This document shows, one piece after another, positions 33,142-55,768 of a stretch of DNA of 64,000 nucleotides (position 1 is its first letter; each line of letters starts with the position of its first letter). The notes below the pieces were generated by a model. It did not search any database and was not told the origin of the DNA. It was given only the letters and a program-made list of their open reading frames with translations. Source of the stretch: a bacterium. Its GTDB lineage: Bacteria; Pseudomonadota; Alphaproteobacteria; Rhizobiales; Aestuariivirgaceae. The DNA lies in NCBI GenBank assembly GCA_022842165.1, contig JALHQC010000014.1:1-64000 (forward strand), in the 5' to 3' direction. The translations under genes were made by a program, and so were the position numbers.

Positions 33142-34452
33142 TCAGACGCGGATTTCGACCCTGAGGCCGCCCAGCTCCGAGCGGCCATAGGTGACGCTCA
33201 AGCCGTAGATATCGGCGATATCCTCGACGATGGAGAGCCCCAGTCCGGAGCCCTGCTTCGATTCGTCGAGCCTGCGGCCGCGCTCCGAAATATGCTTGAG
33301 CTCGTCCTCTGGAACGCCCGGCCCGTCATCCTCGATCGCCAGCAGCGGCGCGGCGTAGCGGAGCCTCACCTGCGACCTAGCCCATTTCCGCGCATTGTCG
33401 AGGAGATTGCCCAGAAGCTCGGTCAGGTCGCCCTGTTCCATGGGCAGGGTGACATCGGCCAGAACGTCGAGATCGAACTGCAGGTCTTCCGCCCCCGGCA
33501 GCCGGGCAATCGCCGCCACCACGCGCTCGGCGGCGGGCTTCAGCGCCGTGGCGCTGTGGCCCTTGCCGCTCGACAGCCGTGCCCGCGCCAGCGCCTGCTC
33601 GACGTGGCGCAGCATTGCCTGGGCCTGGTCCTCGATGTCGCTGGCCTGCTGCGGATGTCCCGACTTGCGCAAGTCGCGGGCGATGGAGGCAAGGATGGTG
33701 AGTGGCGTCTTGAGGCCGTGCGCCAGGTCGCCCGCCCGCCGCCTGGCCCGCTCCAGCGAGGCATCGCGAAGGTCAAGTAGCTCGTTCAGCTCGCCGGCCA
33801 GCGGCGCCACCTCGTCCGGAAAGGCGCCGGACAGCCGGTTGTCGTGGCCGGTGCGGATGGCGGCGATACGGGCGCGGAGATGCTGCAGCGGCCTGAGGCC
33901 CACCGTGACCTGCACCCAGGCGCCGAGGATGAGGATGGTGCCGATGATGCCGAGCGACAGGATGAGCTGGTCGCGGAACTGGTCGATCGGCCGCTGCACT
34001 TCATCGGCATGCGCGGCGGCGAGCATGGCGATCTGCTGGCTGCGGCCATTGCGCTCGATGGCGAGGTCGCGCCTCGCGATGACCAGCTGCTCGCCTTCGG
34101 GGCCTTTGGGGTTCGCAGGGTCGAATTCGAAATCCCACAGCGAGCGCGAGCGCAACGGCTCCAGCACCGGCTGGCCCTCTCCTGGCAGAAACGCAATCCG
34201 CCAGTAGCGCCCGCCATAGGGTTCCTGGTAGCGCGGGTCGGCCAGCGTGCCGCCCGCCGTGACGCTGCCATCGGCGGAGGTGGCGATCGAGCCCGCAAGC
34301 TGCAGCAGATCGTTCTCGAGACTGGTGACCACGCGTTCGCGCATCTGCGCCTCGAACAGACGCACCAGTGCCACGCCGGTGAGCGACAGGGCGATGGCGA
34401 TCGAAATGGCCGCGGCCACAAACAGCCTCAGCCGCAGCGAGCCTTTTTTCAT
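33142..34452 (-). CDS. Sensor histidine kinase of the PepSY-associated two-component system
   Basis: 436 residues. There is a membrane helix at about 9-31, a periplasmic sensor region of about 125 residues, a second helix at about 163-185, a short HAMP-like linker, the phosphoacceptor His245 in GDLAHGLKTPLT, an N box LLGNLLDNARKWA, and G boxes EDDGPGVPEDE and GSGLGLSIVEDI. The layout resembles PhoQ/FeuQ-type kinases. The ATG at 34452 is 7 bp after the response-regulator stop. It would phosphorylate the regulator at 34460-35125. The stimulus is unknown; the associated acidic PepSY protein suggests an envelope or cation signal. Confidence 0.92.
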   Translation of the reverse strand: MKKGSLRLRLFVAAAISIAIALSLTGVALVRLFEAQMRERVVTSLENDLLQLAGSIATSADGSVTAGGTLADPRYQEPYGGRYWRIAFLPGEGQPVLEPLRSRSLWDFEFDPANPKGPEGEQLVIARRDLAIERNGRSQQIAMLAAAHADEVQRPIDQFRDQLILSLGIIGTILILGAWVQVTVGLRPLQHLRARIAAIRTGHDNRLSGAFPDEVAPLAGELNELLDLRDASLERARRRAGDLAHGLKTPLTILASIARDLRKSGHPQQASDIEDQAQAMLRHVEQALARARLSSGKGHSATALKPAAERVVAAIARLPGAEDLQFDLDVLADVTLPMEQGDLTELLGNLLDNARKWARSQVRLRYAAPLLAIEDDGPGVPEDELKHISERGRRLDESKQGSGLGLSIVEDIADIYGLSVTYGRSELGGLRVEIRV

Positions 34453-34459
34453 CGGGCCA

Positions 34460-35125
34460 TCATGCCGGGGCGGCGGGCACGATATATCCGAAACCGCGCC
34501 GCGTTTCGATGACGTCGGCCTTGAGCTTCCGGCGCAGACGGCCCACCAGCGCCTCGATGGCGTTGGAATCGCGCTCATTGTCGTGCGCGTAGAGATTTTC
34601 GCTGAGCTCGGCCTGCGACACCACCCGCCCGCGATGATGGAAGAGATAATTGAGCAGCCGGAATTCGAGCGGCGTCAGGGTGGCCGGAATGCCGCCGACC
34701 GTGACCTGCCGGTTGCGCGGGTCGAGCGTGATGGGACCGACCGAAATCGACGGCTCGGCCCGGCCGGTGGACCGCCGGAGCAGGGCCCGGAGGCGGGCCA
34801 TCAGTTCTTCCATGCGGAAGGGCTTGGGCAGATAGTCATCAGCACCGGCATCGATGCCGTCGACCCGGTCGGTCCAGGCGCCGCGCGCCGTCAGCACCAG
34901 CACCGGGGTCGTGACGCCCTCCTGCCGCCAGCGCTTCAGCACGGTAAGCCCGTCGATTCCGGGGAGCCCCAGGTCGAGAATGATGGCGGAATAGTTTTCG
35001 GTGCCGCCGCGGAACCAGGCGTCCTCGCCGTCGGCCGACACCTCGGCGACATAGCCGCCGCTGTTCACGGCTTCCGCGAGATCGGCGGCGATCCGGGCTT
35101 CATCCTCGGCGATCAGGATCCGCAT
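34460..35125 (-). CDS. OmpR/PhoB-family response regulator
   Basis: 221 residues: receiver domain (1-120) with acidic pocket EDE at 7-9, phosphoacceptor Asp51 (IILDLGLPG), Thr/Lys switch residues (LTARG, PKPF), and a C-terminal winged helix (about 125-218) with LTPLEFRLLNYLFHH and RRGFGYIV. It is a transcription regulator that usually binds direct repeats spaced 11 bp. Such repeats, TGTCAGCGA twice at an 11-bp period, occur upstream of this operon (35710-35729) and similar ones near 54350, giving candidate targets. The start is 2 bp after the PepSY gene stop. Confidence 0.94.
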   Translation of the reverse strand: MRILIAEDEARIAADLAEAVNSGGYVAEVSADGEDAWFRGGTENYSAIILDLGLPGIDGLTVLKRWRQEGVTTPVLVLTARGAWTDRVDGIDAGADDYLPKPFRMEELMARLRALLRRSTGRAEPSISVGPITLDPRNRQVTVGGIPATLTPLEFRLLNYLFHHRGRVVSQAELSENLYAHDNERDSNAIEALVGRLRRKLKADVIETRRGFGYIVPAAPA

Positions 35126-35127
35126 GT

Positions 35128-35598
35128 CTAGAACCCGGCCGTCCCGACGATCTGCGCGGTCCTGGCATTGACCCGCACTTCCACCAGCCGGTTATCCGTG
35201 TCGATCAGGCGGATGCGGTAGAGAAGGTTGCGGCGGCTGCCGGTGAGGCGGACGCGCACGACCTGGCCCTTGTAGCGGCGGCGGACGGCGGAGAGAATCT
35301 GGCGCAAGGGCTGCGCCTCGCCGGCCTTGACGGCATCGCGGATCCTGTCGTCATCGTCATCATCCTGCTTGTCGTCATCCTTGTCGTCATCGTCCTTGTC
35401 GTCGTCCTTGTCATCGTCCTTGCTGTCGTCGTCCCTGCCGCCATGGCCGCTGCTGTCATCGCCGCCACCGCTGTCGCCGCCCTTGCCGCCACCACCGTCT
35501 CCACCGCCGCCGCTTTCGCCATCCTTGGCAAGCGCCGGCAGGCCCTGACCGGCAAGGCCAAGCAGCAGAAGCATCAGGAATTGGCGGCGATCGGGCAT
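35128..35598 (-). CDS. Secreted PepSY-domain protein with a long Asp/Gly-rich linker
   Basis: 156 residues. A signal peptide (MPDRRQFLMLLLLGLAGQGLPALA, with Arg-Arg but no full Tat motif) is followed by a Gly/Ser stretch (about 25-50) and about 35 residues made almost only of Asp with interspersed Lys (about 55-86). The C-terminal 70 residues (IRDAVKAGEAQPLRQIL ... VRVNARTAQIVG) form a PepSY-like domain. It is the first gene of an operon with the response regulator and kinase, an arrangement seen for other PepSY/two-component sets. The poly-Asp region is a likely cation-binding segment; that role is inferred. The corresponding DNA is a run of imperfect GTC/ATC triplets prone to length change. 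Confidence 0.85.
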   Translation of the reverse strand: MPDRRQFLMLLLLGLAGQGLPALAKDGESGGGGDGGGGKGGDSGGGDDSSGHGGRDDDSKDDDKDDDKDDDDKDDDKQDDDDDDRIRDAVKAGEAQPLRQILSAVRRRYKGQVVRVRLTGSRRNLLYRIRLIDTDNRLVEVRVNARTAQIVGTAGF

Positions 35599-35686
35599 TA
35601 ACGCATATCCAACAGAACTCTAGACATTATCACAGGTCTCCCGGCGAGGGGAGGCGCCCGATAAGGATTAGCTCTAATTGAACAGG

Positions 35687-35729
35687 CCTGACAGGCCCGT
35701 GAACGGGTCTGTCAGCGATTTGTCAGCGA
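35687..35729 (-). promoter_or_regulatory. Candidate response-regulator boxes upstream of the PepSY/two-component operon
   Basis: CCTGACAGG (35687-35695) and two identical TGTCAGCGA units (35710-35718 and 35721-35729) with an 11-bp period. Direct repeats of this spacing are typical OmpR/PhoB-family binding sites. The set partly overlaps the infC 3' end and lies about 90-130 bp upstream of the PepSY gene start. A similar trio is at 54346-54375. Confidence 0.5.
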
Positions 35730-36280
35730 GGCGCCAGCACCATGACGATCTGGCGGCCTTCGAAGCGCGGCTCGGATTCGACCTTGGCGATCTCGGTGGT
35801 ATCCTTCTTGACGCGGTCGAGCAATTGCTGGCCCAGCTCCTGATGCGCCATTTCGCGGCCGCGGAAGCGGAGCGTGATCTTGACCTTGTCGCCTTCCTCG
35901 AAGAAGCGCTTGATGGCCCGCATCTTCACGTCATAATCGTGGTCGTCGATCATCGGGCGCATCTTGATCTCCTTGATCTCGATGACCTTCTGCTTCTTGC
36001 GGGCCTCGGCGGCCTTTTTCTGTTCCTGGAACTTGAATTTACCGTAGTCGAGGATCTTGCAGACGGGAGGCTTCGCATCGGGCGAGATCTCGACCAGATC
36101 GAGATTGGCCTCTTCCGCCATCATGATGGCCTGCCGGATCGGCACCACGCCGACATTGGCGCCATCTTCGCCGATCAGGCGCACTTCGCGCGCCTCGATG
36201 CGGTGGTTGATCCTGTAGTCCTCTTCCTTTTGCGGGGGGGCGGCTCCGCGGCTCGATGGCCTCCGTGGTGGTATGCTCAA
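35723..36280 (-). CDS. infC: Translation initiation factor IF-3
   Basis: 185 residues from the start chosen here. The N-terminal domain shows [19 protein letters not shown] and [20 protein letters not shown]; the C-terminal domain shows [20 protein letters not shown] and [16 protein letters not shown]. It binds the 30S subunit and checks initiator tRNA. The start is uncertain: the frame is open upstream to 36343, but that extension is not IF-3-like. The TTG at 36280 (giving [12 protein letters not shown]) has AGGAG about 11 bp upstream; the next codon but one is ATA, another rare start. Unusual start codons on infC are a known autoregulatory device. rpmI-rplT lies 2.7 kb away, not directly downstream. 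Confidence 0.9.
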
Positions 36281-36424
36281 GTGGGCATCAGCTCCTGTGG
36301 CGGGGCGGCACGAATCCGGCCAGCCCCTGTTTGGTTGCGGCACGCTTTAGACATTGAATGGGGCATCCCCGTCAAGCGCCTAAGTCGGAACGGGGCGGGA
36401 GGTTCCGGCGGGGCGGCGGAAGCC

Positions 36425-37915
36425 TCACCGGGCCAGGTTCCGCTGCCGCTCGCCGCGCCGGCCGGCTTTCAGCTCGGCGACCGTATCGGGAACCGCGATG
36501 CGGAACACCGTGCCGTCGGACCCTGTCGAGAACAGGCGGATCTCGCCGCCATGGGCGCGGATCAGTTCCGAGCAGATGGCCAGCCCGAGGCCCACGCCGC
36601 CGCTGCGCTGGGCGCTCTGGAAGGCTTCGAACAGTTTCGGGCGCACCCGCTCGGGGATGCCCGGCCCATTGTCCCTGACCTCGATCGTCACCACGCTGCC
36701 CTCGCGCCACGACTTCACCGTGACATGGCCCTCGCGCGCATCGGGCGTGTCGTTCTGCAGCGTCTCGATCGCCTGGATCGAATTGCGCAGCAAATTCGTC
36801 AGCACACGGTTCAGATGCTCGCGGTCGGCATCGATGAGGAGTTCCGCCGGAACCTGGTTGAACAGTACGACCCGGCTCGAGGCCTGCACGACCGCGCCCT
36901 CGATCACGTCATCCGCGATGGCGCGCAGCGTGAGGCGCTCGCGCAATGGCGGGGCTTCCTGCGCCCGGCCGAATTTCAGCGTCTGCGACAGGAAGTCGAT
37001 GGCGCGGTCGAGGCTGCCGATGAGCTTTGGCGCGAAGCGCTTGACGGTCGGGTCCTCCACCATCGCCAGCCGGTCGGATATGAGATGCGCCGACGACAGC
37101 ATGTTGCGGAGATCGTGATTGACCTTGGATGCGGCGAGGCCGAGTGCCGCGAGCCTGCTCTTCTGCTGCAGCATCGAGGCAAGCTCCGACTGCATGTCAT
37201 GGAGCTCGCGCTCGGCAAGCCCGATCTCGTCGCTGCGCTCCGATGGCACGATGATGCGCGAATGATCCTCCGGGTTCTGGCGGAAGGCCAGCATGTTGCG
37301 CGTCAGCCGTTTCATCGGCCGCACCAGCGTGACGTTGAGCGCCGTGAACACGAGCCCCGCGACGATGATCGAGAGAATGATCGAGAGAATGAGGATGTTG
37401 ATGCCGTAGCCCAGCATCGCCTTCCGGAGCGGTTCCTCGAACAGCGCGATCTCGATGATGTCGCCAGACATGTTGGGCGGCACATCGATGATGCCGAGGA
37501 CGCGCGGCTCCGTTGCCAGCATGGTGGTGAAGGCATCGACGATGGCCGACAGCCACGTGCCGCTCCGCAGATCGTAGGAGGCATCGATCATGTGATCGCC
37601 CTCGCTGCGGAGAATGAGCTGCCGCTTGTCGCCCCGTGTGAGCGAGACAACGAGAACGCCCGCGCCCTTGAGAATTTCGGTGCGGAGATCGCTCGACAGG
37701 ATGCGGTCGGGTGCGGCTTCCGCCGCAAGGGCCGCGATTTCGGCCTGGGCGACGCGGCCCTTGAGCCACTGGATGCGGAAATTGGCGATCGAGGGCAGGA
37801 AGATCAGCACCTCGCCCAGCATCACGAAGATGATGGTCAAGGCGAGGACCTTTCCGGAAAGCCCCCTCAGGAGGCCCGGATCGAATGATCTGGTCTTGCC
37901 GTCTCCGTCCGTCAT
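36425..37915 (-). CDS. Orphan sensor histidine kinase coupled to the flavoprotein gene
   Basis: 496 residues. Membrane helix at about 22-42, a periplasmic domain (about 43-165), a second helix (about 172-193), a HAMP domain, a phosphoacceptor His267 in KVNHDLRNML, and an ATPase domain with LLRNSIQAIET, DNGPGIPE and GGVGLGLAICSELI. The H box KVNHDLRN is typical of the HisKA_2/NtrB-like variants. Its ATG overlaps the stop of the flavoprotein gene (ATGA), so translation is coupled. No response regulator is adjacent, so its partner lies elsewhere. Confidence 0.9.
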   Translation of the reverse strand: MTDGDGKTRSFDPGLLRGLSGKVLALTIIFVMLGEVLIFLPSIANFRIQWLKGRVAQAEIAALAAEAAPDRILSSDLRTEILKGAGVLVVSLTRGDKRQLILRSEGDHMIDASYDLRSGTWLSAIVDAFTTMLATEPRVLGIIDVPPNMSGDIIEIALFEEPLRKAMLGYGINILILSIILSIIVAGLVFTALNVTLVRPMKRLTRNMLAFRQNPEDHSRIIVPSERSDEIGLAERELHDMQSELASMLQQKSRLAALGLAASKVNHDLRNMLSSAHLISDRLAMVEDPTVKRFAPKLIGSLDRAIDFLSQTLKFGRAQEAPPLRERLTLRAIADDVIEGAVVQASSRVVLFNQVPAELLIDADREHLNRVLTNLLRNSIQAIETLQNDTPDAREGHVTVKSWREGSVVTIEVRDNGPGIPERVRPKLFEAFQSAQRSGGVGLGLAICSELIRAHGGEIRLFSTGSDGTVFRIAVPDTVAELKAGRRGERQRNLAR

Positions 37916-54019: not shown

Positions 54020-54271
54020 TCAACGGTGATTGGCGCCGTCGTCTGCTCCACGGCCCTTGCCGCCCTTGCGGCCGCCGCGGTCATCGCCGGCCGGGTCATC
54101 GGCGCCGCGGCCGCGGCGGACGTGACCAGCCGGATCATCGGCGCCCTGGCCGCCGCGAACGTGGCCGGCAGGATCATCGGCACCCCGGCGGGCAAAGGCG
54201 TCGGTGCTGAGGAACGAGGTTGAGGCGGCAACCGTCAGTCCGAGGGCGAGGGCGGTGAGCGTGAGCTTCAT
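54020..54271 (-). CDS. Small secreted protein with GADDPAGH repeats
   Basis: 83 residues. A signal peptide MKLTLTALALGLTVAASTSF is followed by LSTDAFARR and then three imperfect copies of GADDPAGH(V/D)RGG(Q/R) (about residues 30-65) and a basic Gly-rich tail. No family is recognised. ACGGAG lies ahead of the ATG. Although strongly repetitive, the signal peptide and ribosome-binding site make it a credible gene. Upstream lie boxes like those in front of the PepSY/two-component operon (54346-54375), so co-regulation is possible. It converges on recR. Confidence 0.65.
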   Translation of the reverse strand: MKLTLTALALGLTVAASTSFLSTDAFARRGADDPAGHVRGGQGADDPAGHVRRGRGADDPAGDDRGGRKGGKGRGADDGANHR

Positions 54272-54345
54272 CTGACTACTCCGTGTTTGTGTTGCAGGTC
54301 TGAATGACCATGACGAGGACACTAGTCCACGCGCCCCTGCAGGCG

Positions 54346-54375
54346 CCTGACAGGTGCCGTCAGCCTTCCGTCAGC
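54346..54375. promoter_or_regulatory. Candidate response-regulator boxes (CCTGACAGG and two CCGTCAGC)
   Basis: CCTGACAGG (54346-54354) followed by CCGTCAGC at 54357-54364 and 54368-54375, an 11-bp period. It lies 75-105 bp upstream of the small secreted protein gene (minus strand) and 131-160 bp upstream of the vWA gene (plus strand). The composition and spacing match the set at 35687-35729. Confidence 0.5.
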
Positions 54376-54505
54376 AAGCCCGTTAACGCTTCGTGAACCA
54401 TAATCATCGCGCCGGCTGCCCTGCCGGCCGCCGCGGACCGCCGCTTGCTCCTGCTCTCCTCAATGGCCACCGGCCTGTTCCGGATTGAGACGAGGGAGAA
54501 CCATC

Positions 54506-55768
54506 ATGACCAACTTGAAGCGCATCGCATCGACGCTGAAGGCCTTTGCCGCCAACCAGAAGGGCACCACCGCGGTGATCTTCGCGCTGAGCATCGTGCC
54601 GCTGCTCCTCGCCGGCGGTGCGGCGATCGACTATGTGCGCTATGCCGATGCCGAGACCAGGCTTCAGGCCGCACTCGACAGCGGCGCGCTTGCCGTCGCG
54701 GCCTCCGCCGGCCTGACCGACGCCCAGCGCGCCAAGGCCGGCAAGGATACCTTCGAGAGCAATCTCAAGGCGGCCCGCATCGATCCCGCCGATGTGTTCT
54801 CGTCGTTCAAGGTCAAGGGCACGCAGGTTTCGGCGGAAGCCAATTTCATCCTGCCCTCGGGCCTGATGCAGATCGCCGGGATTTCCGAGATGGAAATCGC
54901 CGTGGCCACCGAGATCAGTGTTCCGGAAGGCAAGAAGGCCGAGATCGCGCTCGTCCTCGACTATTCGGGCTCGATGGAGGAAGTCTCGGGCGGCGAAGTG
55001 AAATATGTGGCGATGAAGAACGCCGCCAAGAAGCTGATCTCCGATCTCGAGGCCGCGAACCCCAAGAACGTGAAGGTCGGCCTCGTGCCGTTTTCGCACC
55101 ATGTCTATGTGACGATGCCCGAGAAGTTCATTGCCGGCATGAGCGGCCCCGCCAGCTGGACGGGCTGCACGCAGGACCGCCGTTATCCCCATAACCTGAC
55201 CGACAAGACCCCCGGCACTGGCGACGACACCAAATGGGGCCATGCCTTCGCCAAGGTTCATGCCAGCGACGGCTGCGCGCCCTATGCGCCGAAGGGCCTC
55301 AAGGTGACGCCGCTCACCGACGATTTCGGCAAGCTCCGCAAGCAGCTCGACGTCATGCGCCCCTATGCCTGGACCCACATCGCGCTGGGCGCCGAGTTCG
55401 GCTATCACCTGCTCTCGCCCAACGCGCCCTTCACCGAAGGCGTTGCCTATGGCGACAAGAAGACGACCAAGATCATGGTGCTGCTCACCGACGGGCGCCA
55501 GACCGAGCCGGGCTTCGGCAGCGGCGTGAGAAGCGTTGCGCAGGGTGAAAGCAATCTCGAGGCGATCTGCACGAATGCCAAGGCCTCCGGCATCACCATC
55601 ATCACCATGGCCTTCGACCTCCGCGACAAGGACACCCGCGCCCGGCTGAGCGACTGCTCCACCGATCCCGCCAAGCACTTCTTCGTCGCCGAGGACAGCG
55701 CCGAACTGGCGTCCGCCTTCGAGGAAGTGAAGTCGCAGATCACCGCGCAGGTCTTCATCAGCCGCTGA
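54506..55768 (+). CDS. Tad-like pilus-assembly protein with von Willebrand A domain
   Basis: 420 residues. N-terminal TadE/TadG-like segment: QKGTTAVIFALSIVPLLLAG with GAAIDYVRY, one membrane helix with the bulk of the protein outside. From about residue 150, a vWA domain with MIDAS motif VLDYSGSMEE and VLLTDGRQTE. Cys residues at GCTQ and GCAPY could form a disulfide. Such proteins occur with tight-adherence pilus systems, but no other tad or cpa gene is near. GAGGGAGAA precedes the ATG at 54506; a TTG seven codons upstream is in frame but unlikely. Confidence 0.85.
   Translation: MTNLKRIASTLKAFAANQKGTTAVIFALSIVPLLLAGGAAIDYVRYADAETRLQAALDSGALAVAASAGLTDAQRAKAGKDTFESNLKAARIDPADVFSSFKVKGTQVSAEANFILPSGLMQIAGISEMEIAVATEISVPEGKKAEIALVLDYSGSMEEVSGGEVKYVAMKNAAKKLISDLEAANPKNVKVGLVPFSHHVYVTMPEKFIAGMSGPASWTGCTQDRRYPHNLTDKTPGTGDDTKWGHAFAKVHASDGCAPYAPKGLKVTPLTDDFGKLRKQLDVMRPYAWTHIALGAEFGYHLLSPNAPFTEGVAYGDKKTTKIMVLLTDGRQTEPGFGSGVRSVAQGESNLEAICTNAKASGITIITMAFDLRDKDTRARLSDCSTDPAKHFFVAEDSAELASAFEEVKSQITAQVFISR

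Follow-up and report, generated by a model that had tools for sequence, protein, structure and literature searches.

Two places in the window (the whole 64,000-nucleotide stretch of DNA analyzed here) carry the same short repeated words, one upstream of a two-component operon and one upstream of a gene for a small exported protein. Are these words operators of a common regulator and, if so, which regulator and which genes are involved? The original prediction placed the words at 35687-35729 (site 1) and 54346-54375 (site 2), described them as the same trio of boxes, and proposed that one OmpR/PhoB-type regulator acts on both to control an apparently new regulon of small, acidic exported proteins. 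All of the words are present where they were reported. At site 1, CCTGACAGG occupies 35687-35695 and TGTCAGC starts at 35710 and 35721 on the forward strand; at site 2, CCTGACAGG lies at 54346-54354 and CCGTCAGC at 54357-54364 and 54368-54375.

At both sites, the promoter of interest is on the minus strand. Read in that direction, toward the PepSY-regulator-kinase operon, site 1 is CTGACAAATCGCTGACAGACCCGTTCACGGGCCTGTCAG. It contains the boxes TGAC (35722-35725), TGAC (35711-35714), TTCA (35700-35703), and GTCA (35689-35692) at offsets 0, 11, 22, and 33, an exact 11-bp register that defines an operator core at 35689-35725 (minus strand). This core has one mismatch in 16 positions to the palindrome TGAC-N7-TGAC-N7-GTCA-N7-GTCA. 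The general layout, TGAC-N7-TGAC-N7-(G/T)TCA-N7-GTCA, consists of two PhoB-style direct-repeat pairs arranged back to back. Site 2 (54337-54373, minus strand), which reads CTGACGGAAGGCTGACGGCACCTGTCAGGCGCCTGCAGG toward the GADDPAGH gene, has TGAC (54370-54373), TGAC (54359-54362), GTCA (54348-54351), and a degenerate fourth box, GCAG (54337-54340), also in 11-bp register. At site 1, CCTGACAGG forms box 4, whereas at site 2 it forms box 3; its start precedes the first repeat unit by 23 nt at site 1 and the matching base by 12 nt at site 2. As the difference is one 11-bp step, all boxes of both sites share one register. Rather than a trio, the element is a palindromic tetrad.

The site 1 operator is 90 bp from the start codon of the first operon gene (35128-35598, minus strand), which encodes an Orf1-like PepSY protein with an apparent signal sequence and an Asp/Gly-rich segment; its match to PF03413 is marginal (24.1 bits; cut-off, 24.0). 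The presumed operator binder is the OmpR/PmrA-type response regulator (34460-35125, minus strand; PF00072 and PF00486). Its best NCBIfam model is PmrA, with a score under the cut-off, and its nearest solved chains are BasR; against the PhoB model TIGR02154, it scores 156.8 bits, short of the cut-off of 296.2. The sensor kinase (33142-34452, minus strand; start codon inferred from MKKGSLRLRL) is of the SK1 type. In the available portion of the paper that describes them, SK1 sensors carry the signatures SGVYWQ and RSRSLWD and always occur with a small Orf1 (Meyer et al., 2010; PMC2909971). The window kinase has an exact RSRSLWD, together with GGRYWR, a variant of SGVYWQ. The upstream neighbor, infC (IF-3; 35723-36343, minus strand), is outside the system, and its stop codon (35723-35725) lies inside the second TGTCAGC of site 1 and overlaps box 1. 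A second histidine kinase gene (HATPase_c; 36425-37915, minus strand) is located upstream of infC, with no regulator adjoining it in the listed stretch. Site 2 is 65 bp from the start codon of its putative target (54020-54271, minus strand; GGAG before the ATG), which encodes a small exported GADDPAGH-repeat protein of 83 aa that had no Pfam match.

To what extent could such arrays occur by chance? A scan of the genome for TGTCAGC-N4-TGTCAGC, as proposed with the original prediction, was weak on its own: with up to 2 mismatches, it gave 37 matches compared to 13 for the reversed control, and site 1 was the only exact match. When the 64-kb window was scanned with the palindromic four-box model, site 1 ranked first (1 mismatch in 16) and site 2 second (3 in 16), followed by three other places with 4 mismatches. 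In whole genomes, four boxes with up to 3 mismatches in 16 matched 16 distinct places in the window's own genome (G000; control, 2) and 31 in its nearest relative (G034; control, 6). As roughly nine of the 16 G000 places fall inside coding genes and look like chance matches by gene context (using mechanical ORF calls), the boxes alone at 3 mismatches are no proof of site 2. Those on C9, C7, C20, and C50, both on C24, and C19:42358 are inside long ORFs, those on C4 and C10 are inside or across called ORFs, and C19:58218, which retains three boxes and resembles a place in G034:C44, has no small exported neighbor. Four of the 16 precede small exported proteins, namely site 1, site 2, and places on C13 and C11; since the model was built from site 1, only the last three are independent of it.

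The remaining two places merit separate mention. G000:C27:24716 (L325:1517-1553; 3 mismatches) lies among similar small exported-looking ORFs with an NVTVxxKN...PxVG motif, the nearest start being 164 bp away. G000:C1:60804 (L229) is one of three operator-like sites beside the same gene pair in three genomes, together with G034:C103:62669 (L228) and G017:C3:69591 (L108); we take this pair to be DUF1638-like and corrinoid-methyltransferase-like genes. The G000 site sits between convergent genes, and the sites beside this pair have no clear small protein. Possibly, the sites beside the DUF1638-like genes belong to a small RNA or an overlooked small gene.

Could site 1 mainly be a 3′ hairpin of infC, either a terminator or an mRNA end, with the repeats a by-product of the stem? 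The infC stop codon is followed immediately by an inverted repeat of 13 nt with a 2-nt gap (35688-35715, minus strand; arms 35688-35700 and 35703-35715), which exists because boxes 2 and 4 are inverted. It could form a hairpin with a predicted stem of 11 pairs, and two other loci (L015 and L016) have, in place of the tetrad, a terminator-like hairpin with a T tract, ending CTGTCAGCTTTTTT. However, the repeat at site 1 has no T tract, a terminator search found no intrinsic terminator in 35590-35800, and the fold has a z-score of only -1.5, with 15 of 200 shuffles folding equally well. A hairpin also needs no direct repeats in exact 11-bp register. The tetrad upstream of pepSY is kept in four genomes of the same genus (G034, G002, G030, and G017) in which the surrounding sequence has diverged, as well as in L017 and L020 (1-2 mismatches in 15), where no infC is found upstream in the stretch examined. 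L013 (from G026) retains infC, regulator, and kinase, but no pepSY gene separates infC from the regulator and no tetrad is seen. The presence of the tetrad without infC and its loss with pepSY indicate that the element belongs to the pepSY operon and not to infC. As the tetrad also occurs elsewhere, before cytochrome b561 and other exported genes, a hairpin origin of site 1 seems very unlikely.

Named genomes were scanned and yielded 80 loci with related regulators. The operator, mostly 356-493 bp before the regulator gene, was found in Bradyrhizobium, Rhodopseudomonas, Pseudolabrys, Hoeflea, Thioclava, Roseovarius, Paracoccus denitrificans, and others, and also in the Chromatiaceae Thiocapsa and Thiorhodococcus. 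The copy in Paracoccus denitrificans DSM 413 (L211) is a perfect match to the operator. For a count of co-occurrence, an operator was scored when it had no more than 2 mismatches in 15 and lay within 900 bp upstream of the regulator. From 109 loci, four with too little sequence were removed; L017, which is probably the same contig as L147, had been excluded beforehand. In the resulting 105 loci, the operator was present upstream in 48 of 63 with an SK1 kinase signature versus 2 of 42 without (Fisher p = 4e-14). The two exceptions with an operator and no signature are L037, whose operator has 2 mismatches, and L147, which has no RSRSLWD match. Among the 15 SK1-type loci lacking an operator within 900 bp, four (L172, L176, L179, and L190) carry one at another position in the locus, two (L168 and L174) have partial copies, and the others (L015, L021, L025, L031, L148, L159, L164, L173, and L178) have at least 3 mismatches in 15. 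In a 104-row tree of the regulators, every one of the 49 rows with an operator fell in a single 70-row clade (support, 100/99), and none of the 34 rows outside this clade has one; within it, 21 rows lack the operator. That the operator tracks a regulator clade supports, from comparative genomics, the idea that one OmpR/PhoB-type regulator acts on both sites. Some loci, most of them Rhodobacteraceae-like, have an operator copy beyond the regulator-kinase genes, before cytochrome b561 (L170:6013, L176:6022, L179:6019, and L265:4947).

We examined promoter geometry using 75 distinct sites with no more than 1 mismatch in 15 from the named and order-level loci, a set that includes neither G000 nor G034. 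Within 120 bp of these sites were 97 exported-type start codons, which fell into a near group at 23-28 bp (34), a far group at 58-76 bp (41), and 22 elsewhere. Position 14 after the last box is an A in all 34 near promoters and 39 of the 41 far promoters (73/75). The rest of the hexamer is loose: T13 accompanies A14 in 18 near and 8 far promoters (26/75), and the full TANNNT is found in 6 near and 4 far promoters (10/75), so that only the A is well conserved. This A is probably the second base of a -10 element at positions 13-18 after the last box, and the regulator may stand in for the -35 element. A -10 at this position would place the transcript start roughly 25 nt after the box, so near genes are probably leaderless, or nearly so, and far genes have a leader. 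A ribosome-binding site precedes 7 of the 34 near genes and 38 of the 41 far genes.

Applying this rule from other genomes to the window gives a predicted -10 of TAGAGC for site 1 (35671-35676, minus strand; positions 13-18 after box 4), in which the T at position 18 is missing, and of TAGTGT for site 2 (54319-54324, minus strand; positions 13-18 after the box-4 position). No sigma-70 -35/-10 pair was found at site 1. G034 keeps both the GADDPAGH gene and its site (L138:2935-2971); after the fourth-box position, site 2 reads GGGCGCGTGGAC-TAGTGT and its G034 counterpart GCGGCACGCGGT-TAGCTT. In G030, the interval from recR to the TadE/G gene contains neither the GADDPAGH gene nor the site. In the window, site 2 is flanked on its other side by a TadE/G-vWA gene (54509-55768, plus strand; PF13400 and PF00092). 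This gene is probably not a target, as position 14 in its direction is not an A and G030 carries the gene with no operator. The pattern recognized by CtrA is TTAA-N7-TTAAC, and TTAACGCTTCGTGAACC, at 54383-54399 (plus strand) between site 2 and the TadE/G-vWA gene, matches it with one mismatch; it could be a control site of the TadE/G-vWA gene itself.

Combining the four boxes with TANNNT into one composite pattern (no more than 3 mismatches in 19) left four distinct places in the 4.3-Mb G000 genome and none in the control. These are site 1, site 2, C13:50236, and C11:7350, and each precedes a small exported protein. The protein downstream of the C13 site is exported, contains DDDGTPDQGGG repeats and a Lys-rich tail, and has a counterpart in G034:C81 that likewise comes with a site. 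The C11 site precedes a 66-aa exported GGSGCDD protein ending GGSGCDDPGDVAEHPECR, a protein type that recurs with the operator in L111, L116, and L123. At the three non-autoregulatory sites, the operator is 65, 69, and 70 bp from the start codon. The C11 type belongs to a small exported family ending GGSGCD...D.AEH..C (L226:1607-1807, L111:1565-1894, L116:2965-3453, and L123:2816-3082), each member with an operator 62-70 bp upstream; one member tested (L226) had no Pfam match. Five PF01292 cytochrome genes are present in G000, on contigs C5, C11, C12, and C80 and none on C14. As no site with up to 3 mismatches occurs near any of them in the stretch examined around each, the cytochrome branch seen in relatives seems to be absent from the G000 regulon.

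As for the proposal that the target proteins are acidic, it fits two of the four G000 proteins. With assumed cleavage points, the mature PepSY and C13 proteins have net charges of -8 and -15 (pI 4.7 and 4.4), but the GADDPAGH and GGSGCDD proteins each have a net charge of +1 (pI 8.6 and 7.8); the GADDPAGH protein of G034 is at -6. "Exported, mostly Asp/Gly-rich" is a more accurate description of the set.

Elsewhere, the composite pattern was found at five places in G034, four in G017, and two each in G002 and G030, with a control total of 1 across the search; some of these matches have no clear target. It was found nowhere in G026, which has no pepSY at the locus, nor in G018 and G005, whose best regulator match is 53% identical. 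G026 is in effect a natural loss experiment, with neither pepSY nor operator at the locus and no composite sites genome-wide.

Might a paralogous OmpR-type regulator, such as the one on C43 of G000 (53% identical), use the operator instead of the linked regulator, or alongside it? Paralogs with related DNA-binding domains exist, and the groups share some recognition-helix residues. However, there is no operator upstream in the paralog-group rows L034-L036 and L038, and no composite sites were found in either tested genome lacking a close regulator, making a role for a paralog very unlikely.

The linked regulator's presumed targets in relatives extend beyond its own operon. With the 15-base pattern at up to 1 mismatch, 37 genomes yielded 36 distinct places (control, 1). 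A small exported ORF begins 10-150 bp from 18 of the 34 places examined, versus 573 of 5,897 random positions. In 249 genomes of the order, exact matches to the symmetric 14-base pattern occur at 42 distinct sites, spread over 31 genomes (control, 2). Twenty-five of these sites are upstream of the regulator operon and 23 are upstream of cytochrome b561, including L118, a manual assignment since its contig breaks off within the gene. A small exported ORF starts within 160 bp of 35 of the 42 sites, compared to 629 of 5,698 random positions (11%); 25 of these 35 ORFs are PepSY genes belonging to the regulator's own operon, and one (L292) looks like a phosphatase, the exported-protein call being a simple hydrophobicity rule. 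All but three of the 42 (L270, L286, and L287) adjoin the operon, cytochrome b561, or a small exported ORF. Among the 17 not upstream of the regulator, 10 have a small exported ORF, four have only the cytochrome, and three have nothing fitting. The frequency of small exported neighbors, also away from the regulator operon (10/17), favors the predicted regulon of small exported proteins. In Pfam searches of proteins from relatives, both divergent small proteins tested matched PepSY_2 (PF13670), the one Orf1 tested matched PepSY (PF03413), and the cytochrome matched PF01292. In two genomes, the operator lies between two genes (L109:3313-3349 and L110:1018-1054), with an exported Asp/Gly/Ser-rich protein on one side and, on the other, a gene that we take to be DUF4139/MuiA-like.

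The sites could also be ordinary Pho boxes bound by PhoB. The half-site of the Pho box is TGTCA, and the TGTCA-like half-sites, the 11-bp period, and the place of the predicted -10 in our sites are all similar. But the tetrad is palindromic, no phosphate genes are among the targets seen, the site goes with the SK1 module and its regulator clade, which is not that of PhoB, and G018 and G005 have no composite site, leaving little probability for PhoB as the binder. The resemblance may extend to the promoter, since in the available text on enterobacteria and rhizobia, PhoB boxes overlap the -35 and the regulator stands in for it (PMC3616915).

We compared the window system with known systems that share its parts. 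The closest is the Orf1-RR-SK1 module (Meyer et al., 2010; PMC2909971), which, like the window operon, consists of a small Orf1, a response regulator, and an SK1 kinase with RSRSLWD. The available portion of that paper also describes a divergent Orf1-cytochrome operon with a suspected divergent promoter, matching the layout in our relatives, and gives no operator (PMC2909971). Based on matching gene order, we infer that Meyer's Orf1 is the PepSY protein. The published module adjoins SHP/cytochrome b operons (PMC2909971), whereas in the window infC is the neighbor and small exported proteins make up the additional targets. Linked cytochrome b561/SHP genes, which are frequent but not universal in the module, were not found in G000 and are linked at 23 of the 42 sites in relatives.

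The Vibrio cholerae DbfQRS system (VC1638-39) also has a small exported PepSY gene just upstream of the regulator and kinase genes (PMC12714742). According to the available sections, DbfQ binds DbfS and holds it in check, biasing it toward phosphatase activity; the operon is probably under positive autoregulation, and it reacts to damage of the membrane (PMC12714742). On exposure to polymyxin B, the kinase VC1639, which is another name for DbfS, controls a periplasmic protein, VCA0732 (PMC5636140). Control of the small periplasmic VCA0732 (PMC5636140) parallels the small exported proteins that the window system is predicted to control. The DbfQRS signal is membrane integrity or polymyxin B (PMC12714742), and for the window system, both a signal of this kind and inhibition by PepSY are suggested by analogy. 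DbfS may itself be an SK1 kinase, judging from a remark about Vibrio by Meyer et al. (PMC2909971). The available sections of PMC12714742 and PMC5636140 give no operator for DbfQRS.

Other operators share the 11-bp period. In the accessible text on Pseudomonas aeruginosa, BqsR recognizes TTAAG-N6-TTAAG, with four pentamers at one promoter, the fourth overlapping the -35 (PMC4682146). The period and the number of boxes are those of the tetrad; in contrast, the half-site is TTAAG rather than TGAC/GTCA (PMC4682146), and the tetrad has two pairs in opposite orientation. PepSY genes also adjoin the BqsR system (PMC12714742, available sections), and BqsS is reported to be a ferrous iron sensor (PMC12666569, available sections). 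In Sinorhizobium meliloti, FeuNPQ comprises a modulator gene and two-component genes, feuN is FeuP dependent, and the candidate motif is TTCA-N7-TTCA (PMC3616915, available sections). This motif has the 11-bp period, and box 3 is TTCA in the window genus; however, boxes 1, 2, and 4 are TGAC/GTCA in a palindromic array, and the FeuP motif is not present at site 1, where only box 3 is TTCA.

Taken together, the results make it likely that sites 1 and 2 are operators of the linked OmpR/PmrA-type regulator, with two PhoB-style pairs per palindrome, that serve autoregulation and a regulon of exported proteins. They belong to the known OmpR/PhoB type of site but differ in having a conserved palindromic architecture of their own, and the regulon was not found in the literature searched. 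We likewise found no operator of this kind there, in a search with partial coverage and few subscription journals; it may be in print elsewhere. The module to which the regulator belongs had been described by Meyer et al. (2010; PMC2909971).

How might this operator work? Each GTCA-N7-GTCA pair would point at its own promoter, with the regulator, in the place of the -35, recruiting RNA polymerase. In the divergent layout common in relatives, one half would drive the PepSY-regulator-SK1 kinase operon and the other a second PepSY protein or cytochrome b561, and the autoregulated operon transcript would apparently have little or no leader. In the window lineage, with infC on the other side of site 1, the regulon would add the GADDPAGH, C13 DDDGTPDQGGG-repeat, and C11 GGSGCDD proteins. 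By analogy to DbfQRS, the PepSY protein probably restrains the kinase until the envelope is disturbed or a ligand binds. The released kinase would then phosphorylate the regulator, which would occupy the tetrad and switch on its own operon along with the genes for the exported proteins. The same analogies suggest envelope disturbance or a cation as the releasing signal, which may differ between systems.

More tentatively, as a reading that is plausible rather than probable, we propose a widespread, undescribed regulon of PepSY two-component systems in which one palindromic four-box operator extends from purple sulfur bacteria to Bradyrhizobium, Paracoccus, and the window genus. In this last genus, it may have been rewired to control exported proteins of low complexity that evolve fast and are rich in Asp/Gly. 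These would soak up cations, metals, or cationic peptides in the envelope like a sponge, and the Asp-rich PepSY protein would be at once a target and the brake on the sensor.

For the PepSY/OmpR-type/SK1 systems, which are common and poorly understood in Alphaproteobacteria and Chromatiaceae, our analysis provides a testable operator, a promoter layout, and a list of targets. A single motif would make the regulon recognizable in a genome sequence; it connects PepSY/cytochrome b561 operons, along with several uncharacterized low-complexity exported proteins, to one regulator. The signal that these systems sense would become testable with reporters.
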